Positions 2,213-19,378 of a DNA stretch of 20,218 nucleotides are shown here, in pieces. Origin of the DNA: a virus; the IMG/VR virus record IMGVR_UViG_3300032731_001350, positions 1 to 20,218 of that record, one strand, 5' to 3'. Position numbers and translations under genes: made by a program. The notes under the pieces were generated by a model. The model saw only the letters and a list, made by a program, of their open reading frames with translations, was not told the DNA's origin and did no database searches. Position 1 is the first letter of the stretch. Each line of letters opens with the position of its first letter.

Positions 2213-2278
2213 TTAATGATTGGTAGACATTTTCCCGGTGCACAAACGGCCGTTTCATATTTTTTCCTCCTTGTTTGG

Positions 2279-2323
2279 GCGAAGGGCTCCATATAATTAC
2301 TACGGAGCCCTTCGCTGTTTTTA
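2279..2323 (+). terminator. Strong Rho-independent terminator-like hairpin
   Basis: A perfect 12-bp stem GCGAAGGGCTCC (2279-2290) / GGAGCCCTTCGC (2304-2315) has a 13-base loop and is followed by TGTTTTTA. It lies 66 bases after the structured RNA and ends where the minor head gene begins. It may end the RNA transcript, or attenuate transcription into the following head genes. Its presence argues against translation of the head protein starting upstream of it. Confidence 0.75.
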
Positions 2324-2327
2324 TGGA

Positions 2328-3920
2328 ATGTTAATGAGAGAATTCGTAGATATAAGCCCTACCTTATGGCGTGATCCGGGATTTCAAGCCCTCCTTGCCG
2401 AGAAGATATTGGAGGAGTTAGATGATGGATCTATGACCCGCCGGGAATGGGAGACTGCTATTTGGCGAGAGTTTATTGAAAAGGTTGCAGATCCCGGCGA
2501 GAAAAAGTTTTATGATGTCCTAATGGTTCTTTTTAGAGGGATGGAGAAGGATATTCTTGGTAAAATGCCAAAAGGTAAGTCTGTCTCTAAAGCGAAGGAA
2601 TCGGATATCGAACATTGGATGTTCTCTGGAAGGCAGTGGAAACAACGTTTTGCACAGCAGGGTGGCGAGGTTATAGAGGGCGTTGCGGTCACCGCCGGTA
2701 GTAGGGCGATGGATAGCATACCTGTTGTGGGTGTTGGCTTTGATGTAACTAATCCGGCTGTCCAGAATCTACTTCAGGCGAGGACAATCAGGTTTGCTAA
2801 AGAGGTTGTAGGAACCACCGAGACACAGATTCGAAAAAGACTAGCCACAGGTATTGCCGCTGGGGAGGGGATGCCGACCCTAAGAAATCGAATCAAGGAT
2901 TACTTCGAGGGTGATGCAATACCGAATCGGGCCGAGATGATCGCTAGGACCGAGACTATTTGGGCCAGTAATGCTGGGGCCGAGGAGGCATACGTTCAGA
3001 GCGGTGTTGTTTCTGGAAAGGAATTTTTAACAGCAGAAGATGAACGTGTCTGTATTTTTTGTAAGGCTGCGGGAGAAAGGTTTGGTGAGGAGCATGGAAT
3101 TAAGCTTGGGGAGGCGTTTTATAAGCTGGGTGATAAGATATCCGGTCATGACTCGGATCTAGATAGGACTGCTACCTATGAGATAACTTATGAGAATGTA
3201 AGGTTTCCGCCTCTCCATGTGCGGTGCAGATGTACATTGATCCCTGTGATTGATGAGAAAGCGGTTGCAAAACCTTTTAAACCGGCCAAAACATTAGACG
3301 AGGCCGAAAAGTGGGTTAAGGATAAAGATTTAGTTGATCAAATTGCGTATAAAAATAGTCGCCCAAAATTTTGGGGTGGTCAATTATTAAGTAAGAAAAA
3401 GAAATTAGAAAAATTTAATATAATTAATTCGGAAATTGATAGGTTCCAGAAAGATTTTAATATCAAATTACCTAAAATATCTATTTTACATATAAATAAA
3501 AATAGAACAGGGAAGGCATCGTATTCATCTAATTGGAAACAAAGACAAATAACATTTGCTGAGGAATGGACATCAAAAGAATGGGATAATATTGAAAATT
3601 GGGAAAAGAAAAATAAAAGAAGGTGGGATTGGATTAAAGATGAAAGCCATATAAAGAAAAATGTTAGGCATGAATATGCTCATATTATAGATGGTGATTT
3701 AAAAATGATATCGTCATCAACGAAATTTGAGAAGGTATTAAAAGATATTTATAAAGCGGGTTTTCATGCCCATAAAATTTCTGATTATGCTAATTCTAAA
3801 CGTACAGAATTTTTTGCTGAAGCTTTTTCTCAATATACAAGTCCCTTTTATAAAAAACATTTGCCTAAAAAACTAGAAAAATTTTTCGAAGAAGAAGTTT
3901 TAGATAGGATAAGAAGATAA
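2328..3920 (+). CDS. MuF/SPP1 gp7-type minor head protein with C-terminal HExxH metallopeptidase domain
   Basis: This encodes about 530 residues if started at ATG 2328 (ATG 2334 is equally possible; neither has a clear ribosome-binding site). A TTG at 2220 would extend the frame but would put the terminator hairpin inside the gene. Residues about 155-310 form the Phage_Mu_F head-morphogenesis domain: RAEMIARTET, then DERVCIFC (C242, C245), then FPPLHVRCRC (C300, C302). Such proteins sit at the portal vertex and can be packaged with the genome. After residue about 330 comes an extra domain with the zincin signature HEYAH (448-452, bases 3669-3683) and a downstream RTEFFAEAFSQY whose Glu (about 498) would be the third zinc ligand. 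Base composition becomes clearly more AT- and Lys/Asn-rich from about 3300 on, as if the tail was acquired separately. This is the layout of MuF polymorphic toxins. A virion-borne peptidase acting on host or capsid proteins is inferred. Confidence 0.8.
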   Translation: MLMREFVDISPTLWRDPGFQALLAEKILEELDDGSMTRREWETAIWREFIEKVADPGEKKFYDVLMVLFRGMEKDILGKMPKGKSVSKAKESDIEHWMFSGRQWKQRFAQQGGEVIEGVAVTAGSRAMDSIPVVGVGFDVTNPAVQNLLQARTIRFAKEVVGTTETQIRKRLATGIAAGEGMPTLRNRIKDYFEGDAIPNRAEMIARTETIWASNAGAEEAYVQSGVVSGKEFLTAEDERVCIFCKAAGERFGEEHGIKLGEAFYKLGDKISGHDSDLDRTATYEITYENVRFPPLHVRCRCTLIPVIDEKAVAKPFKPAKTLDEAEKWVKDKDLVDQIAYKNSRPKFWGGQLLSKKKKLEKFNIINSEIDRFQKDFNIKLPKISILHINKNRTGKASYSSNWKQRQITFAEEWTSKEWDNIENWEKKNKRRWDWIKDESHIKKNVRHEYAHIIDGDLKMISSSTKFEKVLKDIYKAGFHAHKISDYANSKRTEFFAEAFSQYTSPFYKKHLPKKLEKFFEEEVLDRIRR

Positions 3921-4202: not shown

Positions 4203-4246
4203 TTGGAAAAATTGAAAGAAGGAAATAAGTCCGGAGGTAAAACGAA

Positions 4247-7201
4247 ATGGAGCTTATAACGAAACGAATTCCGTTGGAGAATACAAATCTGCCCGACTGG
4301 GCCGCGAAGGCAATGAAGGAGGCTGGGGTTAATCCTGAGGGAGCGGAGCTTGTACGGAAGGGGCTCGTGCCATCGGATACACAGTTTAAGGAAAACGAAA
4401 ATGCGAGTGTCGATTATATAACTACTAAGGCTAGGGATCGAGATAATGAGTTGGTGGTTCCGAAGGGAATAGAGCTGGGTGATTACCGTAAGCATCCTGT
4501 TGTTCTATACTGCCATAATTACAGGCCCGATGATGTACCTCCTGGAAGGAATATGTGGATCAAACTGGACGATAAAGGTTTGGTAGCCAAAACGGAATAC
4601 TTTGTCGGAGACGAGAGTAGTATTGGGCATAAGATATATAATTATAGAAAAGCTGGCTTTCCAATGGCCAAGTCAATAGGCTTTATTCCTATCGAGCAGG
4701 TGGAGGAGGCTGATTTCAAGAACCTGGATCTAAAGGCTTTGGATCTAAACGAGAAGGATCTTGAGGGCGTAAAAAGGGTGTATCCGAGGAGCTTACTTTT
4801 AGAGTATAGCGATGTGCCGGTTCCGAGTAACCCTGATGCCTTACAGTTGGCTGTTTCTAAGGGTTTATTTTTAGATATTGATGATGCAAAGAAATCCGCT
4901 AATGAGGATGATGCGTTTGTGATAGAGATCGTTGAGGATAATAATGAAAAGAAAGGCCGGACATTGATTCGGAACGAGACACCTGGGGAAGAAGGAACCA
5001 TTGAGATAGATATGACTGATACGGTAACAGTATCAAAAGATGAAATGACGGCTGTTGTTGAAAAGGTGACTGAGGAGGTTGCTGAAAAAATTGAAGGGAT
5101 TGGTGTGGATCAGCCTCTGGGTGTTCTAAAGGTCGACGATGAACCCGAGAAGGTTAACTGCCCGGATTGTGATTTTGAATATGCATCTGACGGAGAAGAG
5201 GATGAGTGTCCAAAGTGTGGATCCAAGAAGCCGCCTAGAAAATCTAATAAAGAGGAAAAGCCTGAGGGTGAGTATTATTGTAAGTGCCCTGACTGTGGAT
5301 ATAAGGGGCTGAGTGCGACTGTATGTAGTACTTCCGACTGTCCGGAGTGTGGCAAAAAGATGACCGATGGGGCAGAAGGAGAGGAGAAACCAGAGGAAGA
5401 GAAAAAGTATTTTAATCCATTAAAAGCAAAGACATTTAACTATGAGAACGATGTTGACGAAGAGAAAAATGTAAGATGGAATCCGACTCTTTCAAAGGAG
5501 TTTGATATAGCCGAAGAACCTCTGGAGGCTAGTACTGTGGAGTATGGGCTTATACAGAAGTTTTTGGGCTGTGAGATGAAAAATATCTCAGAGACAACGA
5601 TTACGATACCGTCTGTTTCAATTGGTAATTATTTAAGTGGATTAAAGGTTGCAGTAAAGGATTGGGAAGTTCAGGATGTTCGGAATATTGGCTATGACGG
5701 GACAGAGAGACCTCCGGCTAGATCGGTTATTCAGCTTAACTCTAAGATCAGTGAAGAGTTTTTAATTGAGGGAACAATTTTTTATAAGGCATACAAGGAG
5801 AAGGAAGCCAATGAAATAGAAATAGAGAAGATCCCTATTGTTATGAAGCGGAGACCATCATGGGGCGGTCTGGTACTAACGATGTTCGTTGAACACAAGC
5901 ATATTGGTGTTTACTATAAGGCTATGAACATTGTTCACAAGTGGATCGAGGAGAACAACTGGCTGAAAGGAGAGAGGTTCTCCCTTAGTGGGCAGTTTAT
6001 TGAGAAAACAGATCATAACTGGGATGATGTATTCCTAACTGAGAAGAATATTAAGGCGCTTCAACTATCTCTTAGATCGTTGGAGAAAAAGAAACAGCAT
6101 GCTCCGAATAGAGGACTTTTATTGATTGGACCTCCTGGTACAGGTAAAACTCTGTCTGGAAGGATTATGGCGAACGTGCTTGATGATGTAACGTTTATAT
6201 GGATATCCGCTAGGGATTTTTATAGGAGTGGGGCTGCTGGAGGGATAGGATTTGGATTTGATATGGCTCGTAAACTGGCTCCTTCTATTTTATTTGTAGA
6301 GGATATTGATAATTGGCTTCATGCACGAGCCACCGATCTATTAAAGACCGAGATGGATGGATTGAAACAGTCCACCGGTGTTGTTACTATGCTGACAAGT
6401 AATTATCCGGAAACTTTGCCGGATGCCCTGATAGATAGGCCTGGTAGATTTCATGATGTTCTAAATTTCGATCTACCTGACTCAGATATTCGTTCTAAGA
6501 TGATTCAGAAATGGACCGGAGGGCAGGTGGTAGAGAAGGATCTGGATGGTTTTGTTTCTGAGACTATAGGATATAGTGGGGCACATATTTACGAGTTAGT
6601 TGCGTTTGCAAAATCCCTAATGGAGGATGATGAAGAGTTGGAGATGCCCGAAGCTGTTAGAATGAGTTTGAGAAAAATTGAGGAACAGAGGGAGCTGATA
6701 TCTAATGTTAGGGGTGAGAAAAAAGAACTTGTTGAGCATCTAGTTGAGATTGATAAGAATGTGGAATCAGATACGACCTTTTATATAATTGACGAGGAAG
6801 GTAAGATTAAGGCTCCTCAGGAAGATTTTGTAGAACTGGATTTTATAAATAAAGATGATAATCAAATAATAGAGCTGACGGATGATTTGGTTGAGAAGGC
6901 AGGAAGAGTTATATCAGCCAAGAATCGGAAAACAATTCAGTCGGCTATTGACGGAATGGATCAGGCCACATTGGCATTAAAGGCTTTAATGTCTGCTACA
7001 GAGTTATCCGAAGAGGATGATAGTGGTCCGGCTGTGGACATTTCGAGGGATATAGATGTAAAACGGATTTTAAAAACGGTTAAGGAATCCTTAACGGAGG
7101 CTCAGAAGGAAAATCTTAAGGATCTGAAATCGTCAGTTAGTGGAATGATCGACGAGCGTCTTGATGTTGCTCGTGGTCGTGTTATACGGAGAAGGAGCTA
7201 A
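4247..7201 (+). CDS. Fusion: HK97-type prohead protease, two zinc ribbons, AAA+ ATPase, coiled tail
   Basis: This encodes 984 residues. The ATG follows CCGGAGG at spacing about 9. Residues about 50-215 form a phage prohead protease (S78/U35 type): RDRDNELVVPKG, VVLYCHNY (His90), FPMAKSIGFIP (Ser143) and the closing LLLEYSDVPVPSNPDA. Residues 305-324 and 347-368 are two zinc ribbons (CPDC...CPKC and CPDC...CPEC). After a linker and an alpha/beta domain (about 405-600) comes a full AAA+ module: Walker A GPPGTGKT (628-635), Walker B ILFVEDID (681-688), sensor 1 Asn719, arginine fingers in DRPGRF (730-735) and GYSGAH for sensor 2 (775-780). Residues about 800-984 are acidic coiled coil with a basic C-terminus (RGRVIRRRS), like a scaffold or delta domain. 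Prohead proteases usually have about 200 residues and no ATPase. The gene lies directly before the capsid gene, so it should act in procapsid assembly. The frame is intact, with no sign of a frameshift joining two genes. Confidence 0.88.
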   Translation: MELITKRIPLENTNLPDWAAKAMKEAGVNPEGAELVRKGLVPSDTQFKENENASVDYITTKARDRDNELVVPKGIELGDYRKHPVVLYCHNYRPDDVPPGRNMWIKLDDKGLVAKTEYFVGDESSIGHKIYNYRKAGFPMAKSIGFIPIEQVEEADFKNLDLKALDLNEKDLEGVKRVYPRSLLLEYSDVPVPSNPDALQLAVSKGLFLDIDDAKKSANEDDAFVIEIVEDNNEKKGRTLIRNETPGEEGTIEIDMTDTVTVSKDEMTAVVEKVTEEVAEKIEGIGVDQPLGVLKVDDEPEKVNCPDCDFEYASDGEEDECPKCGSKKPPRKSNKEEKPEGEYYCKCPDCGYKGLSATVCSTSDCPECGKKMTDGAEGEEKPEEEKKYFNPLKAKTFNYENDVDEEKNVRWNPTLSKEFDIAEEPLEASTVEYGLIQKFLGCEMKNISETTITIPSVSIGNYLSGLKVAVKDWEVQDVRNIGYDGTERPPARSVIQLNSKISEEFLIEGTIFYKAYKEKEANEIEIEKIPIVMKRRPSWGGLVLTMFVEHKHIGVYYKAMNIVHKWIEENNWLKGERFSLSGQFIEKTDHNWDDVFLTEKNIKALQLSLRSLEKKKQHAPNRGLLLIGPPGTGKTLSGRIMANVLDDVTFIWISARDFYRSGAAGGIGFGFDMARKLAPSILFVEDIDNWLHARATDLLKTEMDGLKQSTGVVTMLTSNYPETLPDALIDRPGRFHDVLNFDLPDSDIRSKMIQKWTGGQVVEKDLDGFVSETIGYSGAHIYELVAFAKSLMEDDEELEMPEAVRMSLRKIEEQRELISNVRGEKKELVEHLVEIDKNVESDTTFYIIDEEGKIKAPQEDFVELDFINKDDNQIIELTDDLVEKAGRVISAKNRKTIQSAIDGMDQATLALKALMSATELSEEDDSGPAVDISRDIDVKRILKTVKESLTEAQKENLKDLKSSVSGMIDERLDVARGRVIRRRS

Positions 7202-7277
7202 GAAGCGTTAGGTCCTTGACGGGCCGGAGATGCCTTATGGAGAAAATAAATATTAATTTTATGGAGGACAATTGATT

Positions 7278-8603
7278 ATGGGTGAGAAATTAAATATGAG
7301 TCAGCTTGAGGAAATGATCGGTAACGCCGTCAAAGATTCGGTAAAGCTGTTAGCGGACGAGCATAAGGTGTCCATGGACGAGATCAAGGATGAAGTTGAC
7401 GAGAAAATCAAAGAGATTGTGGATCAGATAGGTGTCGGTGGAGAATCCATTGAGCAGAAAAGAGCCAGAGTATTAGTAGATACCGAGGAAACGGACGTTA
7501 GCGGACTACCTAACTTGGCCAAGGACCCTACAGGAGGATTTTACACTCTTTCGCAGTTTGCGCATGATGTCTATAAGACAACCAAATCTGGATATCGGAC
7601 CATTTCTCCCGAGCTTAAGGCATGGGAAGAGGTTACCAAAGCCGCAGATGCAACCACATTGTCTACAGATGATGCCGAGTATGGTGGATTTTTGATTCCG
7701 CCTGAGTTTAAGAATGAGCTTTGGCTTGCGGTTGAACAGAAAAATGAGATCCTGCCTCGGTGTACAAACGTTCCGATGAGGGTTAATACCATTAAGATTC
7801 CTTATGTCAATGGTTTTGATGAGAGTGGTGGATTGGTATATGGAGGAATTGAATGGAAGTGGCTAGATGAGCTTGCGGCTAAAACTGCATCACGCCCCAA
7901 GATTGGACGGATCACCTTAAGTCTGAAAAAGATAGCAGGATTGGCTTACTCTTCGGATGAGTTGTTAGAGGATAGCCCGATCTCGATGGAGAACATTCTT
8001 AAGAATGGTTTCCGTGACGGGCTTAATTTTCAGATCACTCGGGCACTTATTCGGGGAACAGGCGCAGGTCAACCTCTAGGAGTTCTAAATGCACCTTGTT
8101 ATCATGGGATTACGATTGAGACCGGACAGGCAGCCTCTACGATAGTCTTCGAGAATATTATTAAAATGTATGCAGCTATTAATGATAGCGGAAATGCGAT
8201 ATGGCTCGCAAATGAGAATACCTTGCCTCAGCTGGCAACAATGGCTTTGGATGTAGGGACAGGCGGCGTTCCGGTATTTATGCCCGCTAATGGGGCTGCA
8301 GGGATTCCTTATAATACCTTGATGGGCCGTCCGTTGGTATTTAACAAACATTGCTCTACATTGGGAACTGCCGGGGATATACTCCTGGTGGATTGGAGTC
8401 AGTATCTTGTTGGAATGAAGGCTGGTCAGGGAGCGACAGGTAAGTTTGATACTTCTATTCATTTGAAATTTGCCGACGATCAGACTGCTTTTAGGTTTGT
8501 ATTTCGGATTGATGGGCAGCCCTGGTGGCCTACATACCTGACCCCACCTCAGGCGACGACTGATTATATCAGTCCTGTTGTTGGGTTGGATGCAAGGGCA
8601 TAG
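7278..8603 (+). CDS. Major capsid protein, HK97 fold
   Basis: This encodes 441 residues. ATG 7278 lies 10 bases after GGAGG (7263-7267); a TTG at 7272 would add two residues but is too close to the ribosome-binding site. Residues 1-65 are a charged coiled coil, typical of the delta/scaffold region removed by the prohead protease. The rest matches HK97-type capsid proteins: DDAEYGGFLIPPEF opens the folded core, RITLSLKKIAGLAYSSDELLEDS is the E-loop/spine region, LIRGTGAGQPLGVLNA is the classic glycine-rich motif, and the A-domain ends with GRPLVFNKH...GDILLVDWSQYLVGMK. Size is normal for the family. The gene directly follows the fused protease and is followed by a hairpin with a T-run, so it is likely the most abundant product of the operon. 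Confidence 0.93.
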   Translation: MGEKLNMSQLEEMIGNAVKDSVKLLADEHKVSMDEIKDEVDEKIKEIVDQIGVGGESIEQKRARVLVDTEETDVSGLPNLAKDPTGGFYTLSQFAHDVYKTTKSGYRTISPELKAWEEVTKAADATTLSTDDAEYGGFLIPPEFKNELWLAVEQKNEILPRCTNVPMRVNTIKIPYVNGFDESGGLVYGGIEWKWLDELAAKTASRPKIGRITLSLKKIAGLAYSSDELLEDSPISMENILKNGFRDGLNFQITRALIRGTGAGQPLGVLNAPCYHGITIETGQAASTIVFENIIKMYAAINDSGNAIWLANENTLPQLATMALDVGTGGVPVFMPANGAAGIPYNTLMGRPLVFNKHCSTLGTAGDILLVDWSQYLVGMKAGQGATGKFDTSIHLKFADDQTAFRFVFRIDGQPWWPTYLTPPQATTDYISPVVGLDARA

Positions 8604-10127: not shown

Positions 10128-10333
10128 GAAAAAATGAATTTACGAAGATAAAACTGAAGACTGAGTGGATGGGTAATCCAAAGGGACATACAATGACAAT
10201 AAAAAAGGCTACGGCTGATATACTTATCTCCAGAGGTGCTGCGAAACTTCTTAAGGATAAGGAAGAAAAGACAGAGAAAATGCAGGCTCCGGCGAAGCAT
10301 AGAATGTTGGCTAGGGCTGTTAAATCCAAATAA
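10124..10333 (+). CDS. Small basic phage protein
   Basis: This encodes 69 residues and overlaps the previous gene by four bases (ATGA). It has the pattern EWMGNPKGHTMTIKKATADILISRGAAKLL followed by a charged basic tail. Similar short proteins with a GNxxG...A..LI.RGAA pattern are common beside phage head and connector genes, but I cannot name a function. A small virion or connector-associated role is likely from position only. Confidence 0.65.
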   Translation: MRKNEFTKIKLKTEWMGNPKGHTMTIKKATADILISRGAAKLLKDKEEKTEKMQAPAKHRMLARAVKSK

Positions 10334-10362
10334 TTCCACAGGTGGTTTAAACCCATCGGGAG
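10334..10362 (+). repeat. Leader cassette copy 1 (hairpin plus ribosome-binding site)
   Basis: First of three copies of a roughly 29-base element, TTCCACA + GGTGG TTTAAAC CCATC + GGGAG. The hairpin arms are GGTGG and CCATC; compared with the other copies the right arm has T for C, which still pairs as G-U in RNA. It ends 8 bases before the ATG at 10371. Confidence 0.85.
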
Positions 10363-10370
10363 AAAACAAT

Positions 10371-11126
10371 ATGCACAGAATAAATAGTAAAAGCGTAGGA
10401 GGTTGGTTGGCTTTTACCTCTGGAGCCCCAACTAGAGAGATCCTGAGTCTGCCGGGGGATAAGGGAGGAGTCTCTAATTTCACTCAGCTTCGAGCGATGC
10501 ATATTAGTCCGGAATTGGCCTATGGTCACTTTGACGATTTTACACCGAGCGATCTTGTAGGGACATCGTCTTTGCCTGGATATACTGCAACGGCTGTCGG
10601 TGCTAGTACTTTAGTGATGGCTGATGCCGCTACAGGAGTGCTTCAGTTAACCTCGGGAGGGACGGAGAATAATGGTATCCAGATCCAGACAGACGGTGAG
10701 ATATTTCTTCCTGCCGCCAATAAGGATATATGGTTTGAGTGTAGGGTAAGAGGAAATGATGTAACGGAGGTTGATTGGTTTATAGGGCTATGTACAACAG
10801 ATACCTCTATTATCGCAACAAATCCTGATGATGCTATTGGCTTCTGGACTCATGACGGGGATGTAAATATTGATTTTGAGGTTTCTACAGGGACGGGAAC
10901 CCCGACAGATACGGGAGATGATCTTGCCAATAATACATGGGTTCAGTTGGGTTTTTATATTAATGGTGTTACGTCTGTGACTCCGTACATTAACGGAACG
11001 GCTGAAACTGCAATTACGGCGGATATTCCAGCTGTTGAGATGGCCCTATCTTTTGCTTGTCTAACTGGGGAGGGTTCGGTTAACCGCTTAGATATAGACT
11101 GGTACAAGATTGTACAATTGAGATAA
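10371..11126 (+). CDS. Jellyroll/lectin-like virion surface protein, paralogue 1
   Basis: This encodes 251 residues. The ATG at 10371, 8 bases after GGGAG, is chosen because it lines up with the start of the paralogue at 11172. The N-terminus (RINSKSVGGWLAFTSGAPTREILSLPGD) may be a virion-anchoring part. Residues about 50-250 look like a concanavalin/LamG-type beta sandwich: GEIFLPAANKDIWFECRVRGNDV, DWFIGLCTTDTS, DDLANNTWVQLGFYINGVTSVTPYINGT and a final LDIDWYKIVQLR. Such folds on phage surface proteins often bind carbohydrate. It shares its whole length with the next gene. Confidence 0.7.
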   Translation: MHRINSKSVGGWLAFTSGAPTREILSLPGDKGGVSNFTQLRAMHISPELAYGHFDDFTPSDLVGTSSLPGYTATAVGASTLVMADAATGVLQLTSGGTENNGIQIQTDGEIFLPAANKDIWFECRVRGNDVTEVDWFIGLCTTDTSIIATNPDDAIGFWTHDGDVNIDFEVSTGTGTPTDTGDDLANNTWVQLGFYINGVTSVTPYINGTAETAITADIPAVEMALSFACLTGEGSVNRLDIDWYKIVQLR

Positions 11127-11171: not shown

Positions 11172-11948
11172 ATGGCACATAGGATTAGTGCAAAAGATGC
11201 TGGCGGATGGATGGCATGGTATTCAGGGACTGAAAATAAGGAAATTCTCTCTCTTCCGGGAGACGTAACAGGAGTTGCAAATTTTAATCTTTTGAGGTCT
11301 ATGCATGTTAGTCCAGAATTAGCCTATGGAATGTTTGAGGATTTTGCTCCGTCGAAAATAGTTAGTACATCGTCATATCCTGGCTTTACAGTGACTGCTA
11401 TTACAACTGGAACTTTAGTGATGGCGGATAGAGTAGGGGGTTGGCTTCAGTTGACTCCCAACAACTCTACCGGGCATGGGGTCCAAATGCAATCAGACGG
11501 TGAGATATTTCTTCCTGCCGCTGATAAGGATATATGGTTTGAGTGTTCGGTGAGGGGAAATGATATTACAAAGGTTAATTGGTTTATCGGATTAGCTACT
11601 ACGGATACGGATATTATAGGTAGTAATCCGGCGGATCTTATTGGATTTCATACCCATGACGGAGATGCTAATATTGATTTTGAGGTTAGCGCAACTGCTG
11701 GAGCTGGTTCAGAAGTTGATACCTTGTCTGATCTCTCTAATAATACAGCGGTCAGACTGGGGTTTTATGTGAATGGGGTGACTTCGGTGACGCCTTATAT
11801 TGATGGAACAGCAAATACTACGGCAACCTCAACTACGGTTGCGAATATTCCAGCAGTAGAGATGGCTCTGTCGTTTGCTTGTACTACAGGGGAAGGACAG
11901 GTTAATACATTGGATATAGATTGGTACAAGATTGTACAATTAAGATAA
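11172..11948 (+). CDS. Jellyroll/lectin-like virion surface protein, paralogue 2
   Basis: This encodes 258 residues. ATG follows GGGAGG of leader copy 2. It is collinear with the preceding gene (AKDAGGWMAWYSGTENKEILSLPGD; SPELAYGMFEDFAPS; DGEIFLPAADKDIWFECSVRGNDITKVNWFIGL; and the same ending LDIDWYKIVQLR). Differences cluster in loops such as NPADLIGFHTHDG and the Ala/Gly/Thr-rich insert around residue 180. The two look like a tandem duplication that has diverged, with blocks of exact DNA identity (for example 10690-10717 and 11494-11521). It probably forms a second virion surface protein, possibly of different ligand specificity. Confidence 0.7.
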   Translation: MAHRISAKDAGGWMAWYSGTENKEILSLPGDVTGVANFNLLRSMHVSPELAYGMFEDFAPSKIVSTSSYPGFTVTAITTGTLVMADRVGGWLQLTPNNSTGHGVQMQSDGEIFLPAADKDIWFECSVRGNDITKVNWFIGLATTDTDIIGSNPADLIGFHTHDGDANIDFEVSATAGAGSEVDTLSDLSNNTAVRLGFYVNGVTSVTPYIDGTANTTATSTTVANIPAVEMALSFACTTGEGQVNTLDIDWYKIVQLR

Positions 11949-11995: not shown

Positions 11996-13417
11996 ATGGC
12001 AGAACTTAAAACAAAAACACCTTTATTTGTTAGAAAACAGAAAGGAGGTATGTTTACGGTTGTTAATGAGTCGATGACCACGGGAGATATTTGGTTTGTT
12101 GATTCTGGGAAGACCACTACTGGGGCGGATTCAGCGAGTTATGGAAGAAGTCCGGATGCGCCGTTTTTGACTCTTGATTATGCTGTAACTCAAGTGACGG
12201 CGAATAATGGAGACCGGATCTATGTGATGCCCGGCCATGCTGAGAATGTTGCTAGTGCCGCTGATATTGCGGTTGCAATAGCGGGGGCTCATATAATAGG
12301 GATTGGTGGTGGTGCTGATAGACCTACTTTTACGTTCACGGCGACTGCAAGCACCTGGACAATTACGGTAGCCTCAGTCACACTGGAGAATTTACTCCTG
12401 GTAAACGCGATAGATAATCTCAACAATGGGCTGGTTATATCTGGAGCTGATTGTTTTCTGAATAATATAGAGACGAGAGATAATAATGCCTTATATCATG
12501 CGGATGATTTTATCGCTGCTGCTGCTGGTGCTGCCCGCCTTCATATAGACGGATGGCTCCATAGAGCAGGAGCAGGAAAAACTGGGGCGATTTCAGCGAT
12601 AGCACTCGATGGCGTTGATGATCTAATTCTTGAGAATTTTCATGTTCAGGGAGAGTTTTCGGTTGGATGTATTGATAATACAACAGGGGCAGATGAGGTT
12701 TTAAGAGCTTCTATTAAAAGAGGGACTTTAATTAATACGGCCACTCAGCCTGGAATAGATGCTGATACTGATGCTACTGGGGTTGTGGAAGATGTCTATA
12801 TTAGGGTTGCTTCTGGGACAACTTATATTGATAGCGCTCCAAATTTCTCTTATGTTAATTGTTTTGGGATGAGCACTGATTCCAGTGGATGGGAGAGAAT
12901 TGGGACTGAGATAGCAGGGTCTATTGAAGGCCAGATTTCTGATATTGCTGATGAGATGAGTATAGTTGAAACCATAGTTTCTGATGCAGCCGAGCTTCTC
13001 TCTGATATGAATAGCGATATTGTAGCTATAGAGGGCAAGGTTGATGCGGTAGAAACTATAGTCTCAGATGCAGCCATAGCCATTGGTGTAGTCGAAACTT
13101 ATGTTTCTGATGCGGCTGAGACCCTCTCAGATATAGGCTCTGATATAGTGGCTATAGAGGGAAAAATTGATGCGGTCGAGACCATAGTCTCAGATGCAGC
13201 CATAGCCATTGGTGTAGTCGAAACTTATGTTTCTGATGCGGCTGAAACTCTCTCTGATATAGGAAGTGATATAGTGGCCATAGAGGGAAAAGTAGATGCT
13301 TTAGAAACTATTTGTTCTGATATTGAAGCTACACTTGGTACTCATTTAACCGCGTGGGCTGCGTTTGAAACTATTATGTCAGACTTTGTAGCAAAATATA
13401 CGTCTGATGTGCCGTAA
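11996..13417 (+). CDS. Beta-helix fibre/spike-like protein with C-terminal heptad repeats
   Basis: This encodes 473 residues. The start is set by leader copy 3 (GGGAGG, 10 bases upstream). Residues 1-30 are a short basic N-terminus, possibly for attachment. Residues about 30-300 look like a right-handed parallel beta-helix, opening with DIWFVDSG...GRSPDAPFLTLDYAVTQVTANNGDRIYVMPGHAENV, the usual start of pectate-lyase-like phage proteins, and continuing with repeated strand-turn units (ASVTLENLLLVNAIDN, DDLILENFHVQGEFSV). Residues about 310-455 are tandem heptads (SDIVAIEGKVDAVETIVSDAA) that should form a trimeric coiled coil. The DNA has a 126-bp repeat there. Beta-helix trimers with coiled-coil stalks are typical of tail spikes and head fibres that bind or cut surface glycans. 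No catalytic residues could be identified. Confidence 0.75.
   Translation: MAELKTKTPLFVRKQKGGMFTVVNESMTTGDIWFVDSGKTTTGADSASYGRSPDAPFLTLDYAVTQVTANNGDRIYVMPGHAENVASAADIAVAIAGAHIIGIGGGADRPTFTFTATASTWTITVASVTLENLLLVNAIDNLNNGLVISGADCFLNNIETRDNNALYHADDFIAAAAGAARLHIDGWLHRAGAGKTGAISAIALDGVDDLILENFHVQGEFSVGCIDNTTGADEVLRASIKRGTLINTATQPGIDADTDATGVVEDVYIRVASGTTYIDSAPNFSYVNCFGMSTDSSGWERIGTEIAGSIEGQISDIADEMSIVETIVSDAAELLSDMNSDIVAIEGKVDAVETIVSDAAIAIGVVETYVSDAAETLSDIGSDIVAIEGKIDAVETIVSDAAIAIGVVETYVSDAAETLSDIGSDIVAIEGKVDALETICSDIEATLGTHLTAWAAFETIMSDFVAKYTSDVP
12961..13321 (+). repeat. Tandem 126-bp repeats encoding heptads
   Basis: Two nearly identical 42-residue (126-bp) units plus partial units on both sides. 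A 62-base block at 13058-13119 recurs exactly at 13184-13245. Each unit equals six heptads, so adding or losing a unit keeps frame and coil register. Confidence 0.9.
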
Positions 13418-13441: not shown

Positions 13442-14458
13442 ATGAAGGTAGCACATTTTGCTATTTTTGCACCTCACGGCTCTGGCCAATATGAGACTGT
13501 TAAAGATCTTATATTGGCCGAGAGATCCGTGGGAATTGATGCTCAGTTTGTGGATTTTGGATCTGATAAAAAAGGAACCAATCGAAATGAACTAAGTGAC
13601 GGAGAGGTTCATACAGTTCCTCTTGCTTGGGCTTTTGATGAGGCGGATATTGTAGTCCGCCATACATCTATTCCTGAGAAGATTTTAGATGAGAAGCCTG
13701 TAATATGTGCGCTGCATGGGAGACCTGAAAACTCCTTTAGATTGGAGCAGTATAAAACAGCGTTTGTTATTTCTTCTTTAAGAAAGGCAGCAAGTGAAGG
13801 GAAGCATAAGGCATTTATAACATTCTGGCCTGAGTATCTATTTTACTGGTCAAGAATGCTAGGGATTAAGATATTTTTTGTTCCTCCTCCGGTAGATTTG
13901 AATACATATATTCCAGATGGACTTCGACATAGTTTTGGAAAGCATGAAGGAAGTCCAAATATTGTTGTTGCTGATAGATGGAGGGAGGATAGAACTCCAT
14001 TTAATCTGATTTTTGCAGCACAGTACTTTAGAGAGAATTTCTATCCAGATGCGAAACTCCATATATACGGGATTTCGATTACTAAATCAAGCGCTATTAA
14101 CTTTTTTGCCCGTATGCAGAAGAGAAAGAATAATGGAGTGGTTGGACAAACATTTGGGGTGATGGCGTATATAGCGGACGTATATAGAGGTGCCGACTTT
14201 ATTCTTACCCCGAATATGATTGCGACCAGGATAGTGAGGGAGTCGATGGCTAGTGGATTACCAATGGTAGCACCGCTTGGCTGTCAGTATACACCTTTTA
14301 CTGCGGAGCCGAGGGATTTAAAATCATTTGCCTTGGCAATGAAGGAATGCTGGGAATATCCGACTGACCACATTGCTTTAAGAAAACAAGCAAAGGATCT
14401 CTTTGGTCCCGAAAAGGTCGGACAGATGATGAAGCAATTACTGGAGAGATTCGCTTAA
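13442..14458 (+). CDS. GT4-like glycosyltransferase
   Basis: This encodes 338 residues. ATG follows AAAGGTAG. The GT-B fold shows an N-terminal Rossmann part (MKVAHFAIFAPHGSGQYETVKDLI), a linker with the typical VPPPVDLNTYIP (147-158) and a C-terminal donor domain with TRIVRESMASGLPMVA (262-277), where Glu267 belongs to the EX7E-like nucleotide-sugar site. It should transfer a sugar from a nucleotide donor to a glycan, lipid or protein; the specific sugar cannot be told. It is the first gene of the glycan cluster, 24 bases after the fibre gene, which links it to virion decoration or host-surface change. Confidence 0.75.
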   Translation: MKVAHFAIFAPHGSGQYETVKDLILAERSVGIDAQFVDFGSDKKGTNRNELSDGEVHTVPLAWAFDEADIVVRHTSIPEKILDEKPVICALHGRPENSFRLEQYKTAFVISSLRKAASEGKHKAFITFWPEYLFYWSRMLGIKIFFVPPPVDLNTYIPDGLRHSFGKHEGSPNIVVADRWREDRTPFNLIFAAQYFRENFYPDAKLHIYGISITKSSAINFFARMQKRKNNGVVGQTFGVMAYIADVYRGADFILTPNMIATRIVRESMASGLPMVAPLGCQYTPFTAEPRDLKSFALAMKECWEYPTDHIALRKQAKDLFGPEKVGQMMKQLLERFA

Positions 14459-14470
14459 GAAAGGATAAAG

Positions 14471-15436
14471 ATGAAGATAGCTTTGGTTTACAATCCTTTA
14501 GATAATAAACTCAGGCCGGATACGTATAGTTATATATACCGAGGGATGCTTGAGGCTATATTCAAAAGGTGGGGAAGGCAGGATGAGATAACGCATATAT
14601 CGACTAGCTGCTCGATGGAAGATATCAATGTCGATGTAGTTCTTTTTTACGATATAAACTCTAAGCATCATATTGAGCTGGAAGGTCTCGCTAAGCATTC
14701 GGCTCTTAAAATCGAGTGTATGGGTGATCCATTTCAGCATGAGCTGTATGGTATACATTCACAGTATGATATGAAATTTCATAAGTTGAACGCCGAACAG
14801 CGTCTTGATAGGGCGCAAAGAAGGGGTATAGAATATATTGTTTGTGCTACCAAAGAAGGATATTTTCAATATTTCTCTCCTATTCTTGGAGAAGATCAAG
14901 CTGAGAAAATGCTAATTTATTTTCCTTTGGCTCCGTCTTTTCCATCATATGATATTCCGTTGAAAGAGAGAAAACAAGAGGTCTTGGGTAATGGAGCAAT
15001 AACAGAATTTGATTATACCTTTGGATATGTAATGAGAAAATGGGCGTTTCTACAGCCTTATATCACCTTTATTAAGCCATGGGTATATGATCATAGTACA
15101 CCGAAGGGCTCTCAATATGGTAAGTTTTTGAAGCAGTGGGCTGGTGCATTAGCATTGAATGACTACTATATTGTCGGTAAGTATTTTGAGATGCCTTTGG
15201 CGGGATGTGTGACCTTCGCTCAATATTATAAGGAGTATGAGGACCTTGGGTTTAAGGATTATGAGCATTGTATATATGTCGATGTAAAGAATTTTGAGGA
15301 GAGAGTTAAAGGGTTTCTTGCGGATATTAGTGGACATCAGTTAATTGCAGATACAGGTCGCAAATTAATAGAAGAGAACTATACAGCGGATCATTTTGCT
15401 GATTTTTTGTATAAACAGATTGAAGAAAGGATATAA
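14471..15436 (+). CDS. Glycosyltransferase, CgeB-like C-terminal domain
   Basis: This encodes 321 residues. ATG lies 12 bases after the previous stop, with AAAGGA in the gap. The N-terminal part is a Rossmann-like domain (MKIALVYNPLDNKLRPDTYSYIYRGML; NVDVVLFYDINSKH). The C-terminal part holds LALNDYYIVGKYFEMPLAGCVTFAQYYKEYEDLGF (about 227-261), the pattern of the CgeB/Glyco_trans_1_2 donor-binding region, with Glu240 in the expected place, then the usual FEERVKGFLAD helix. A second, different transferase next to the first suggests that at least two sugars are added. Acceptor and donor are unknown. Confidence 0.65.
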   Translation: MKIALVYNPLDNKLRPDTYSYIYRGMLEAIFKRWGRQDEITHISTSCSMEDINVDVVLFYDINSKHHIELEGLAKHSALKIECMGDPFQHELYGIHSQYDMKFHKLNAEQRLDRAQRRGIEYIVCATKEGYFQYFSPILGEDQAEKMLIYFPLAPSFPSYDIPLKERKQEVLGNGAITEFDYTFGYVMRKWAFLQPYITFIKPWVYDHSTPKGSQYGKFLKQWAGALALNDYYIVGKYFEMPLAGCVTFAQYYKEYEDLGFKDYEHCIYVDVKNFEERVKGFLADISGHQLIADTGRKLIEENYTADHFADFLYKQIEERI

Positions 15437-15440
15437 CGAA

Positions 15441-16235
15441 GTGATTGAATTAGTTAGTCAGACCTCGGGATTGAAGGAATCAAGAAATCCGAATTTTGTT
15501 TTTGTGGTTCCTTCGGAGACGAATTATTTCGAGCTGTTGGATTCGATAAATGGAGATGGTGTTTTATTTGGACAGATAGGAAAACAATCGAATAAGGAAG
15601 TATTTATTCGTCATGATATTGATGTGAGTCTGGATCTTGCTTTGCTATTTGCGAGGGAAGAATATCGGAGCAATATTCACTCAACTTATTATCTCCTTTC
15701 AAGTTCGGTATATTGGAAACAGTCAGAAGAGTTTCTTTTCAAGGTAAAGAGTATTCAGGATTGGGGCCATGATATAGGGCTACACAATAACTATTTATCG
15801 GTATATTTAGTTGAAAATATTCCTTTAAAGGATCTTATTAAAAGAGATCTTGATTTTCTTAGGGAAAACGGAATTAGAATTGAAGGGGTTGCAGCCCATG
15901 GAAGTCCTCACTCCAGCAATATGGGATATTACAATTATGAGATTTGGAAAGAATTTGATTTATTAAAAAACGTAGGAGGAACAGATTTCTCTTTTGAGAA
16001 GGTATCTCTAAAGGATTTTGATCTGAAGTATGAGGCGAGTTTTATGCTATATGATGCTTATCTCTCAGACTCAAGGGGAGACTGGATAGGTCTTGTTACA
16101 AAACCAGGAGAAGCAAAACCATTTGAGCCCAGAGATGCTACGGATGGTCTGGGTATTATTTCGTATTTTAATGCGATGGAGAAGGGGTTATTACAATTAT
16201 CACTCCATCCAGAAAGGTGGATTAAAAAAGTATGA
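15441..16235 (+). CDS. Polysaccharide-deacetylase-like (NodB fold) enzyme
   Basis: This encodes 264 residues from GTG 15441, 9 bases after AAAGGA (15426-15431). An ATG at 15396 would overlap the preceding gene by 41 bases and is less likely. The fold is that of glycoside hydrolase/deacetylases: FIRHDIDVSLDLALLF (HDID at 58-61, Asp and His of the metal site), DWGHDIGLHNN (H110, H115), GVAAHGSPHS (H153, H157), and LQLSLHPERW near the end. NodB-type enzymes remove N-acetyl groups from amino sugars. Related proteins without proven activity are common in O-antigen and capsule clusters, so the substrate is uncertain. The stop overlaps the next start by ATGA. Confidence 0.65.
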   Translation: MIELVSQTSGLKESRNPNFVFVVPSETNYFELLDSINGDGVLFGQIGKQSNKEVFIRHDIDVSLDLALLFAREEYRSNIHSTYYLLSSSVYWKQSEEFLFKVKSIQDWGHDIGLHNNYLSVYLVENIPLKDLIKRDLDFLRENGIRIEGVAAHGSPHSSNMGYYNYEIWKEFDLLKNVGGTDFSFEKVSLKDFDLKYEASFMLYDAYLSDSRGDWIGLVTKPGEAKPFEPRDATDGLGIISYFNAMEKGLLQLSLHPERWIKKV

Positions 16236-16720
16236 AACAGGGAATGAGTAATATCTTTACCGAACCGATTACATATGGAGCGGATGTGACAGTAGGTCAT
16301 TTTTGTGTAATAGGAGCAGGAGTAGCAATAGGTAAAGGCGTAGTAATTGAAAATTATGCGGAGATTCAGGAAGGTGTTGAGATAGGGGATAATGTTTGGA
16401 TACGTAGTTATTCTCGGATCGGTTGGAATAGTATTATAGGAGAGCAGACAATTATAAAGTGCGGGGCTATTTTGGGACCGTTAACACAGATTGATCCGAA
16501 GGTATTTATTGGACCTGGCGTAATATGTATGTCTGGCGATAATGATAAGGTGGCAGGAACCATTATTCGTCTCGGCGCCTATATAGGAGCTGGAGCGAAG
16601 ATTATGCCTAGGGTGATAATAGGATCAGAGGCTGTAGTGGGGGCTCAAGCCTTTGTTAATTCTGATATCCCAACAGGAGAGACTTATGTTGGTATACCAG
16701 CTAGAAAGATTCAGAGATGA
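16232..16720 (+). CDS. Left-handed beta-helix acyltransferase
   Basis: This encodes 162 residues from ATG 16232, overlapping the previous stop by four bases; a second in-frame ATG at 16244 (MSNIFTEP) is possible. The whole protein is hexapeptide repeats ([I/V]-G-x-x-x-x): VTVGHFCVIGAGVAIGKGVVIENYAEIQEGVEIGDNVWIRSYSRIG, ending SDIPTGETYVGIPARKIQR, the usual cap of sugar O- or N-acyltransferases that work as trimers with acyl-CoA. In a cluster with a WlbA-type dehydrogenase it may acylate an aminosugar nucleotide. Which of the four acyltransferases does which step cannot be read from sequence. Confidence 0.75.
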   Translation: MKQGMSNIFTEPITYGADVTVGHFCVIGAGVAIGKGVVIENYAEIQEGVEIGDNVWIRSYSRIGWNSIIGEQTIIKCGAILGPLTQIDPKVFIGPGVICMSGDNDKVAGTIIRLGAYIGAGAKIMPRVIIGSEAVVGAQAFVNSDIPTGETYVGIPARKIQR

Positions 16721-17268
16721 GGAAATTTCCGGTATTAAGACAAGGTGTATCGATTAATAAGAATATTAGACTTGGTGGTATTATAAGAGCTGGTTTTGGA
16801 ACAATTATAGAGTCTAATGTTGTAATAGGAAAGGATTCATCGATTGGCCTTTATTGCTATCTAGGAAAAGATATTACTCTTGGGGATCGTTGTCTGATTC
16901 GAGATTATTGCCGATTGGAGGGGAATGCTACTATTGGTAATAGGGTTCATATTTATCAGTATGCCAATATAGGATATGGTTCAATAATTGAGGATGATGT
17001 TTATATTGGCGCCCGGTCCATGTTGACCAATACTAGAAATATTCAGCATATTCGTGGTAAAGCGAAGATCGAACCAGTTACGATTAAGAGGGGAAGTCGT
17101 CTCGCTGTTCATTCGGTGATCTTACCAGGGGTTACAATAGGTGAGCAGAGTCTTATTGGCGCCGGTGCGATTGTGACTAAGGATACAAAACCATTTGGGG
17201 TATATTTTGGAAATCCCGCTAGATATGTGAGGGATGTATCGGAAAGTGAGATTATTCACTATGATTAA
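16717..17268 (+). CDS. Left-handed beta-helix acyltransferase
   Basis: This encodes 183 residues and overlaps the previous gene by four bases (ATGA). Hexapeptide repeats run from about residue 20 (IRLGGIIRAGFGTIIESNVVIGKDSSIGLYCYLG) to 165, interrupted by a loop (TNTRNIQHIRGKAKIEPVTIKRGSRLAVHSVILPGVTIGEQSLIGAGAIVTKD) in the place where WbpD/WlbB- and DapH-like enzymes have their acetyl-CoA and substrate loop. It ends with VYFGNPARYVRDVSESE. It may be the acetyltransferase partner of the WlbA-like enzyme at the end of the window; this is inferred from family and neighbourhood. Confidence 0.75.
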   Translation: MRKFPVLRQGVSINKNIRLGGIIRAGFGTIIESNVVIGKDSSIGLYCYLGKDITLGDRCLIRDYCRLEGNATIGNRVHIYQYANIGYGSIIEDDVYIGARSMLTNTRNIQHIRGKAKIEPVTIKRGSRLAVHSVILPGVTIGEQSLIGAGAIVTKDTKPFGVYFGNPARYVRDVSESEIIHYD

Positions 17269-17905
17269 TGATGAGATGAAACATGTATTGGTATTGGATC
17301 CACATGCCGATGATGGTATTCTTGGGTGTGGCGGAACCATTTCGAAACTGATAAGAAATGGTATTGCCGTAAGTTATATAATTTTTAGTATATGCGAAGA
17401 ATCAAAAGAGCCTCCTTTTGATATAGATATTGCTGATAAAGAGGCAAGAGAGGCTACTGGTAGTTTAGGAATTTATGAAGAGCGCCTAAAGATTTTAAGA
17501 TTTAAAGTTCGGAAATTTAGTTATTTTCGGCAGGAAATTCTTGAGATATTAACTCAAGAGAGAAAAAGAATTGACCCAGATCTCGTTCTGATTCCGTCGA
17601 CGTATGATACCCATCAAGACCATAAGGTTATATCAGAGGAGGGAATTAGGGCATTTAAATTTAGGAGTATCTTAGGATATGAGATGCCAAGAAATAATTT
17701 TAGGTTTCCATCTAATTTTTTTATTGAGTTATCCGAGATGGATGTTGAGGCAAAATTTTATGCTTTAGATGCCTATGAGTCGCAGAAGGAAAGAGAGAAC
17801 TATAGCGATCCTCAATTTGTCCATAGCCTAATGAGGTTTAGGGGTGGCCAGGTTAATGGTAAGTGGGCAGAAGCGTTTGAGCCCATACAGTTAATTATAA
17901 AGTGA
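17261..17905 (+). CDS. PIG-L/LmbE-family zinc deacetylase
   Basis: This encodes 214 residues from ATG 17261, overlapping the previous stop by eight bases; ATG 17234 would give nine more residues and a 35-base overlap. N-terminal motif HVLVLDPHADDGILGCGGT (8-26) is the LmbE zinc site (H15, D18), and STYDTHQDHKVI supplies the third ligand (H118 or H121). These enzymes remove N-acetyl from sugars such as GlcNAc-linked lipids or nucleotide sugars. The usual PHPDDE has Gly in place of the last Glu, seen in a subset of sugar-cluster members. Paired with acyltransferases, it could free an amine that is then re-acylated with another group. Confidence 0.8.
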   Translation: MINDEMKHVLVLDPHADDGILGCGGTISKLIRNGIAVSYIIFSICEESKEPPFDIDIADKEAREATGSLGIYEERLKILRFKVRKFSYFRQEILEILTQERKRIDPDLVLIPSTYDTHQDHKVISEEGIRAFKFRSILGYEMPRNNFRFPSNFFIELSEMDVEAKFYALDAYESQKERENYSDPQFVHSLMRFRGGQVNGKWAEAFEPIQLIIK

Positions 17906-17919
17906 AAGGATTATATGAA

Positions 17920-18825
17920 ATGAAAGCGTTAGACTTGGCGACAAAAGTAGGAGGACAACTTTTTGGAGAAAATAGAGAGGTAGGAAAACCAGTATCTATA
18001 TTTGAGGCAGCGGATGGAGATTTGCTTTTTTGTTCCCCGGAATATTATGAAAGAACAAAACAACTTAAGAATTGTATTATTTTTGTACAATCTGGGAGAA
18101 CAGACATAGAAGATTTTAGTAAAAATACTCATATTATGTGTCTTAATCCAAGATTAAATTTTGCTAAAGCTTTAAAGTTACTTTATCCAGAGCCAGGTCC
18201 ATCTTATATTAGCTCCAATAACCATGAGATTTTCTTTGATAAGGAATGTACTATTGGTACCAATGTTAGAATTTATAACAATGTTACCATGATGGGAAGG
18301 GTTATCATAGGTGACAATGTAATTATAAATGCTGGCTCTGTGATAGGAATTAATGGCTTTGGATATGAAAGGGATGAAAATAATAAGTTAGTTCAGTTTC
18401 CTCATATTGGAGGGGTGACGATAGGCGATGACGTTCATATTGGCGCGAATACAGTTATTAATTGTGGCACACTATCTGATACAGAAATAGGAATTGGATC
18501 TAAGCTGGATAGTCATATTCATATTGCCCATAATGTTAAGATTGGGAAACATTGCTCAATCGCGAGTTTTAGTGTTTTTGGAGGAGGAACTGTTTTGGGT
18601 GATTACTCAACCGTCGCGACAGGGGTCAGTACTCGAAATGGAATATCAATTGGGAAAAATGCATTTCTTGGTCTTGGGGCCGTTATTACAAAGAATGTTC
18701 CTGACGATACGACGGTTATGGGAAATCCTGCGAGGCCGATAAATGATGCCAAAAAGTATCTAAGGTTTATAAAGAAAATTATTAGTCAGGAAGAAAGGAT
18801 TAAAGAAAATGGCCTATGTGTATGA
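17920..18825 (+). CDS. LpxD-like N-acyltransferase
   Basis: This encodes 301 residues from ATG 17920, 9 bases after AAAGGA (17905-17910); an upstream GTG at 17902 lacks such a site. It has an N-terminal LpxD-type domain (1-95) and a hexapeptide-repeat helix (about 105-270). The family signature is clear: INGFGYERDENNKLVQFPHIGG, DDVHIGANTVINCGTLSDTEIG, GSKLDSHIHIAHNVKIGKHC with the catalytic-type His204 in IAHNV. A C-terminal helical tail (KKYLRFIKKIISQEERIKE) matches the ACP/trimer tail. True LpxD adds a 3-hydroxyacyl chain to UDP-3-acyl-glucosamine in lipid A synthesis. Its place in a phage sugar cluster suggests N-acylation of an amino-sugar nucleotide, not lipid A itself. Confidence 0.75.
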   Translation: MKALDLATKVGGQLFGENREVGKPVSIFEAADGDLLFCSPEYYERTKQLKNCIIFVQSGRTDIEDFSKNTHIMCLNPRLNFAKALKLLYPEPGPSYISSNNHEIFFDKECTIGTNVRIYNNVTMMGRVIIGDNVIINAGSVIGINGFGYERDENNKLVQFPHIGGVTIGDDVHIGANTVINCGTLSDTEIGIGSKLDSHIHIAHNVKIGKHCSIASFSVFGGGTVLGDYSTVATGVSTRNGISIGKNAFLGLGAVITKNVPDDTTVMGNPARPINDAKKYLRFIKKIISQEERIKENGLCV

Positions 18826-19378
18826 GGAGAAATATGCTAGTCTACTCGGTGAAGAATATCCAATTCATTGGTCAACCAAATTTGGGAAGAATGTAAGAAT
18901 TGGTCATGGAGTAATAATTGAGAAGGATTGCGAGATAGGAGATAATGTCATAATTACCCATCACTGCGTTCTGCGACCTGGAACGAAAATAGGTAACAAT
19001 TCTGTGGTAAGTCACCTAACAGTATTCGAGGGAGATAGTATCATAGGGGATAGGGTTTTAATCGAGCCTCAGTGTCATATCACTAAGGGGTGCGTTATTG
19101 AGGACGATGTCTTTATTGGCCCTGGAACAATTACAACCAATACAAAAAACATTGTCCACGGTAGAGATATAGAGCTTGTGCTAGCCGGTCCAATGATAAG
19201 GAGGGCTGCTAGAATAGGAGGGGCTTGTCATATAACGCCTGGCGTAACAATAGGAGAGAATTCGTTTATTGGTATGGGTAGTACCGTTACCAAAAATGTA
19301 CCACCGAGGGAGATGTGGCTTGGCTCTCCTGCGAAATATTATAAGGATATTCCTGAAGAGGAGATCCTGAATGGTTAA
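18809..19378 (+). CDS. Left-handed beta-helix acetyltransferase, WlbB/WbpD-like
   Basis: This encodes 189 residues from ATG 18809, 17 bases inside the previous gene, with AAAGGA 10 bases upstream. Hexapeptide repeats begin VRIGHGVIIEKDCEIGDNVIITHHCVLRPGTKIG. The segment CVIEDDVFIGPGTITTNTKNI and the ending ARIGGACHITPGVTIGENSFIGMGSTVTKNVPPREMWLGSPAKYYKDIP match the WlbB/WbpD layout (EDDVFxGP...TN...; GSxVTKxVPP). That family N-acetylates the 3-amino group of UDP-2-acetamido-3-amino-uronate, the step that follows WlbA and an aminotransferase. The WlbA-like gene directly downstream overlaps it by eight bases. Confidence 0.75.
   Translation: MAYVYEEKYASLLGEEYPIHWSTKFGKNVRIGHGVIIEKDCEIGDNVIITHHCVLRPGTKIGNNSVVSHLTVFEGDSIIGDRVLIEPQCHITKGCVIEDDVFIGPGTITTNTKNIVHGRDIELVLAGPMIRRAARIGGACHITPGVTIGENSFIGMGSTVTKNVPPREMWLGSPAKYYKDIPEEEILNG

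Follow-up and report, generated by a model that had tools for sequence, protein, structure and literature searches.

We report that an S78-type prohead protease and an AAA ATPase of the Bcs1/YjoB fold class are joined in one chain in the head gene cassette of a virus, and that the same fusion recurs on many independent viral contigs. The gene occupies positions 4247–7201 of the DNA analysed, a whole stretch of 20,218 bases from an IMG/VR virus record, which is called the window here. Both the protease and the fold class of the ATPase are known, but their combination in this architecture is not described before; the literature searched contained no description of a protease–AAA fusion, and its function is probably not described before either. 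We hold with moderate confidence that the protein is a capsid-maturation protease-scaffold with an inserted Bcs1/YjoB-type AAA chamber, which would remodel folded head proteins during procapsid assembly. The features on which this argument is built are as follows, and all are on the plus strand.

2220–3920, plus strand: MuF-like minor head protein gene, upstream of the fusion (PF04233)
4233–4237, plus strand: ribosome-binding site GGAGG of the fusion ORF
4247–7201, plus strand: fusion ORF, in the order prohead protease, zinc ribbons, Bcs1/YjoB-type N-domain with AAA, helical tail (same one-frame architecture in 51 dereplicated ORFs)
4247–4861, plus strand: S78-type prohead protease, aa 1–205 (H90, S143, E186 and S188 invariant)
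4862–5158, plus strand: acidic low-confidence linker, aa 206–304 (pLDDT mostly <50; composition)
5159–5218, plus strand: zinc ribbon 1, CPDC...CPKC, aa 305–324
5279–5350, plus strand: zinc ribbon 2, CKCPDC...CPEC, aa 345–368
5471–6082, plus strand: N-domain preceding AAA, YjoB/Bcs1-like, aa 409–612
6083–6691, plus strand: AAA ATPase domain with lid, aa 613–815
6128–6151, plus strand: Walker A, GPPGTGKT, aa 628–635
6299–6310, plus strand: Walker B acidic pair, EDID, aa 685–688 (E and D invariant in 62/62)
6395–6403, plus strand: sensor 1, TSN, aa 717–719
6434–6451, plus strand: arginine fingers, DRPGRF, aa 730–735 (invariant in 62/62)
6869–7198, plus strand: helical scaffold-like tail, aa 875–984 (also in AAA-less proteases)
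7272–8603, plus strand: HK97-fold major capsid protein (MCP) gene, directly downstream of the fusion (PF05065, E=3e-45; phrog_10)

The original prediction, made from the sequence of the window, described one uninterrupted frame with two CxxC...CxxC ribbons and a coiled basic tail. The frame is indeed single and uninterrupted, with 984 codons and an ATG located 9 bases after the GGAGG, and the four CxxC pairs of the ribbons are present at aa 305, 321, 347 and 365. The tail is helical as expected, while the expected basic character was found only in the last 25 residues; aa 881–984 contain 20 K+R versus 18 D+E and are nearly neutral. A ribbon resembling zinc ribbon 2 occurs also in the AAA-less relatives L020, L039 and L040, and most AAA-bearing relatives are without zinc ribbons. 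Ribbons of the CxCxxCGxxx...CxxCGGxMRR type (5279–5350 in the window, and in L020, L038, L039 and L040) are placed at varying positions in these protease-scaffold proteins, on either side of the tail helix, in the manner of a small mobile module.

The gene order in the window is portal (C-terminal end), MuF-like gene, fusion and HK97-fold capsid gene, which constitutes a head cassette, and the same MuF–fusion–MCP order was found in L002. A search for other genomes having this order next to an HK97 capsid gene had been proposed with the original prediction; the MCP gene is the next capsid-type gene in 37/51 fusions, and 9 of the remaining 14 stop at the contig end.

Several other genes in the window deserve separate mention. 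The MuF-like protein (2220–3920) has a C-terminal metallopeptidase-type fold match (PF07737, E=7e-5, below the cut-off) and an HExxH-like motif, HEYAH, and possibly carries a MuF-linked effector domain. Two adjacent paralogous ORFs, 10236–11126 and 11172–11948, share the motif HRIxxKxxGGWxAxxSG at the start and YKIVQLR at the end, and the latter ORF had no Pfam or PHROG match. ORF 11996–13417 encodes a tail-like protein whose C-terminus contains a tandem repeat, VETIVSDAAE... (12900–13380). At the record end, 13442–19378 contains a glycosyltransferase-like gene, a PIG-L deacetylase gene and several hexapeptide acyltransferase-like genes, one of which is LpxD-like; modification of surface glycans or of the virion is a possible role of this sugar-related cluster.

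An HK97-type prohead protease with His90 and Ser143 had been predicted, and both residues, together with Glu186 and Ser188, are identical in 90/90 distinct related protease domains. The Pfam profile Peptidase_S78 (PF04586) was matched by 22 of 30 diverse family members; the window's own protease, searched alone, was below the threshold for this profile, and a search of the protease sequence against PDB gave no match. On the basis of catalytic residues, profile and gene position, we assign the window protease to the S78 prohead protease group. Prohead proteases are incorporated in the procapsid core and activated upon completion of the shell. The procapsid core of T4 contains about 55 copies of the protease, as pentamers (PMC9958956).

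The ATPase module, composed of the N-domain and AAA (aa 409–815), has 407 residues. PF00004 (AAA) was matched at residues 624–742 of the window protein with E=7e-19, and in 62/62 aligned modules, which have 42–54% identity to that of the window. The intact Walker A, Walker B, Asn sensor and arginine fingers that had been predicted are present and invariant in all 62: the G, G, K and T of Walker A, the ED of Walker B, T717 and N719, and DRPGRF, the histidine after which is also unchanged. Walker B of the window is E-D (FVEDID), not D-E; that of Bcs1 is also E-D. With catalytic residues that do not vary in the protease alignment or in the ATPase alignment, both enzymes are strongly constrained.

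No Pfam family was matched by the N-domain of the 62 members. A structure model of the module built from the 62 sequences was confident (pLDDT 92.3, pTM 0.86), and its best matches to PDB structures by Foldseek were Bacillus YjoB (E 5e-18) and mitochondrial Bcs1 (E 9e-16). These two align over about 400 columns with the N-domain included, versus about 240 columns and AAA only for FtsH, PAN and Vps4. TM-scores to YjoB and Bcs1 were only about 0.5 with large rmsd, and we therefore treat this as a fold-class assignment, not a close relationship: according to the model, the module is a classical AAA of the Bcs1/YjoB fold class without close kinship. The model also points to a packing of the N-domain and AAA that differs from that in YjoB and Bcs1. 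In the family profile, a three-residue gap versus Cdc48 is found at pore loop 1, where the strict aromatic-hydrophobic-Gly pattern occurs in only 9/62 modules; a tyrosine is common at one pore-loop position (23/62), so that the pore may still grip substrate to some extent.

Three more specific identities were considered and rejected. The window ATPase is not assigned to Bcs1 itself, as it has no predicted membrane anchor; no membrane helix was predicted in the window protein, whose top 19-residue hydropathy mean is 1.12. FtsH membership was rejected on the absence of HExxH in the 984 aa and on FtsH structure matches covering AAA only, and Lon membership because the Pfam search, with E up to 1, gave no Lon family and because the peptidase is of the S78 type.

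When the protease fragment was used as a query, 47 viral loci were found, with best-segment identity up to 66%. The same open frame with N-domain and AAA was present in 13 of these (some cut at the contig end), and in others the protease is joined to the same tail with AAA absent. The aligned ATPase module as a query gave 136 viral relatives, 80 of which were kept, and pattern scans of viral contigs with the whole protein or the AAA fragment gave no match. In total, 64 dereplicated ORFs with the module, including that of the window, were collected from IMG/VR or MAGs: 51 protease–AAA ORFs, 4 AAA–protease–MCP ORFs, 7 with no protease in the same ORF and 2 cut at the 5' end. Searches with the whole protein and with AAA alone had been proposed as a check, on the view that the prediction would fail if related phages always carried separate genes or if the frame were a misassembly; 51 one-frame fusions on independent contigs exclude both. 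Joining of a host gene, or an assembly error, was likewise ruled out by the many independent contigs with the same fusion.

The layouts in which the AAA ORF has no protease part are informative in themselves. L023 and L073, each with the fused chain divided between two overlapping reading frames, look like frameshifted fusions. In L062, a separate protease gene is located directly upstream and the AAA gene begins at the protease stop; its protein begins with MERWNKSF, exactly at the module boundary, and a purine-rich stretch precedes the start. In L074, L100, L102 and L114, the gene immediately after the AAA gene matches head maturation protease families, and in L100 and L114 a portal gene precedes the AAA gene. 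The standalone AAA genes L074:4196-5250, L100:4981-5990 and L114:2695-3670 encode an N-terminal region of about 330–350 aa before the module, and that of L100 had no PHROG match. In four other cases (L061:2693-5998, L085:968-4303, L090:5908-9225 and L103:4142-7354), AAA, protease and HK97 MCP form one chain, matching phrog_617 with E down to 1e-143. L103 has a possible internal start at aa 623, before the capsid part, with a Shine-Dalgarno-like AAGGA; the capsid protein may additionally be produced unfused from this start. A clade composed of L080:4738-10875, L062 and L068 has very long extensions after AAA, up to 2046 aa in total, with no PHROG match.

The module is essentially phage-borne, because among 84,980 prokaryote genomes only one relative was found, in a Cloacimonadota MAG, where a short contig carries this fusion as well; another Cloacimonadota genome has a more distant standalone AAA of 490 aa. 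Among 50,697 phage records, none matched the whole module. In eight AAA-bearing records searched whole, one module copy each was found, and in 16 AAA-less records (fragments of 7.6 to 53 kb) no separate AAA was found elsewhere except for one weak 56-residue match. AAA-bearing records of at least 20 kb had a median length of 44.7 kb versus 27.7 kb for the others (p=0.005); other cut-offs gave no difference, and we make no claim on this point.

Since relatives lacking AAA have their protease attached to this same tail, AAA is an optional insert between the protease and the scaffold-like tail, and the predicted insertion of an ATPase between protease and scaffold parts is thus upheld. In the protease tree, AAA presence needs 8 parsimony changes, 3 to 4 of which are forced by well-supported branches, and the AAA-less L015 and L017 are nested inside AAA-bearing clades; judging from this nesting, some capsids of this type must be able to do without AAA. 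The four layouts are intermixed in the AAA tree, with L061 beside the fused L086, and L062 with the fused L068 and L080. This scatter indicates that joining and splitting recurred while adjacency stayed, and the AAA link has been broken and remade several times with fusion or adjacency to protease and capsid genes kept. Since this association persists despite repeated breaking, the fusion argument strongly favours a process shared with the head genes, and involvement of the module in head assembly has good support from the repeated fusion and the synteny.

As to the mechanism, we infer the location in the procapsid, the substrate and the use of ATP there. The tail and protease would bring the fusion into the growing procapsid; the behaviour of known prohead proteases makes a location of AAA inside the procapsid plausible. 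The AAA parts would form ATP-hydrolysing rings in the procapsid or on assembly intermediates, with their N-domains making a chamber, and before maturation, or at its onset, such a ring may remodel folded head proteins: the capsid subunits or the delta regions at their N-termini, the scaffold, or the portal. Bcs1 is reported to be without a canonical pore loop and to translocate folded substrate held in its chamber (PMC11143374), and because of this parallel we prefer a folded-substrate mechanism to threading. The ring would pull on or release folded domains, with no threading of an unfolded chain into the protease, and the protease would then cleave the scaffold and probably also the long linkers of its own chain.

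A somewhat different role, which we consider rather unlikely, is that of a cytoplasmic chaperone acting before assembly: AAA would help the capsid protein to fold or to stay soluble, like a phage-encoded substitute for GroEL, and be cut off by the protease before or during assembly. The AAA–protease–MCP polyproteins would fit such a non-permanent attachment, as would the separate AAA genes of L062, L074, L100, L102 and L114, but most members keep AAA in the protease chain, many with the tail that would take AAA into the procapsid. The original prediction instead proposed a Lon- or FtsH-like machine in the procapsid, able to pull on capsid delta domains or misassembled subunits; in such a machine, the AAA ring would unfold the delta domains or the scaffold and feed them by threading to the protease of the same chain. 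The one-chain protease and AAA, the complete ATPase motif set and an AAA sequence nearest in PDB to that of Cdc48/VCP, a threading unfoldase, agree with this idea; however, the protein has no HExxH, its N-domain is YjoB/Bcs1-like and its pore loop 1 is shortened and unconserved, so that the Lon- or FtsH-like designation was not sustained. Nor is a sealed protease chamber suggested by the linker that separates protease and AAA, which is long, variable and modelled with low confidence, and because AAA is on the opposite side of the protease in four ORFs, there is no fixed geometry between the two; we regard a threading machine as unlikely. It is very unlikely that AAA is a cargo that enters the head on the protease-scaffold, stays inside it and, upon ejection into the next host, acts on host proteins or defences: a core-targeting sequence of T4 can bring foreign proteins into the head (PMC9958956), but a position between protease and scaffold would expose AAA to cleavage, and the link to the capsid gene persists through four layouts, the MCP fusion included. 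A chance or neutral fusion or an assembly artefact with no functional link, to which the existence of AAA-less relatives might be thought to point, is extremely improbable and is refuted, as far as sequence allows, by the independent contigs, the catalytic residues kept in 62/62 modules despite their divergence from the window, and the repeated joining and splitting of genes that nevertheless stayed adjacent.

In model tailed phages, assembly and maturation of the capsid are described as independent of a phage ATPase, DNA packaging and host chaperones aside. Many uncultured tailed phages have a predicted remodelling ATPase fused to or adjoining the maturation protease, which suggests an ATP-using head assembly unlike that of model phages, and one group joins a catalytically conserved ATPase to the capsid protein itself. 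We put forward, tentatively, the wider possibility that head building in a widespread class of uncultured tailed phages employs a procapsid-integral, ATP-driven ring that remodels folded proteins and is part of one chain with the maturation protease or with a protease–capsid polyprotein. In that case, an AAA ring could be positioned beneath single capsomers or beneath the portal, driving or proofreading assembly and maturation, and the fusion would be a natural single-chain design uniting protease, scaffold and remodeller. Whether some phages spend ATP on correcting or driving capsid assembly becomes directly testable, and a role is suggested for YjoB/Bcs1-like AAA proteins that have been found in phages without an assigned role.

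Several known systems share features with the fusion. Known prohead proteases of the HK97/T4 type (PF04586) have the same His-Ser-Glu set, the same position from portal/MuF to capsid gene and a scaffold-like C-terminal tail as in the window protein; however, they are small and have no ATPase, whereas the window protein has the ATPase module between protease and tail. YjoB (PDB 7w42) and Bcs1 (9gs2, 8t14), the latter a heptamer, combine an N-domain and AAA over the same extent as the module, but with 16–18% identity, and the module is phage-encoded within a head gene and has no predicted membrane helix; like Bcs1, for which this is reported (PMC11143374), the module has no canonical pore loop. 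FtsH and Lon also carry an AAA ATPase and a protease in one chain, but the protease type is unrelated and the N-domain different, and the HExxH and conserved pore loop are lacking in the window protein. Standalone phage AAA proteins, for example BFVD A0A6J5RXQ2 and A0A7M1RWE9 and the "putative ATPase YjoB" of Xanthomonas phage phiXF1, have a similar predicted fold or AAA sequence but are separate proteins. In protease–MCP fusions (phrog_617), which are known in thaumarchaeal proviruses (PMC6563490), the protease shares one chain with another head protein, as it does here; the partner there is the capsid protein, and L061, L085, L090 and L103 add AAA in front of such a fusion.
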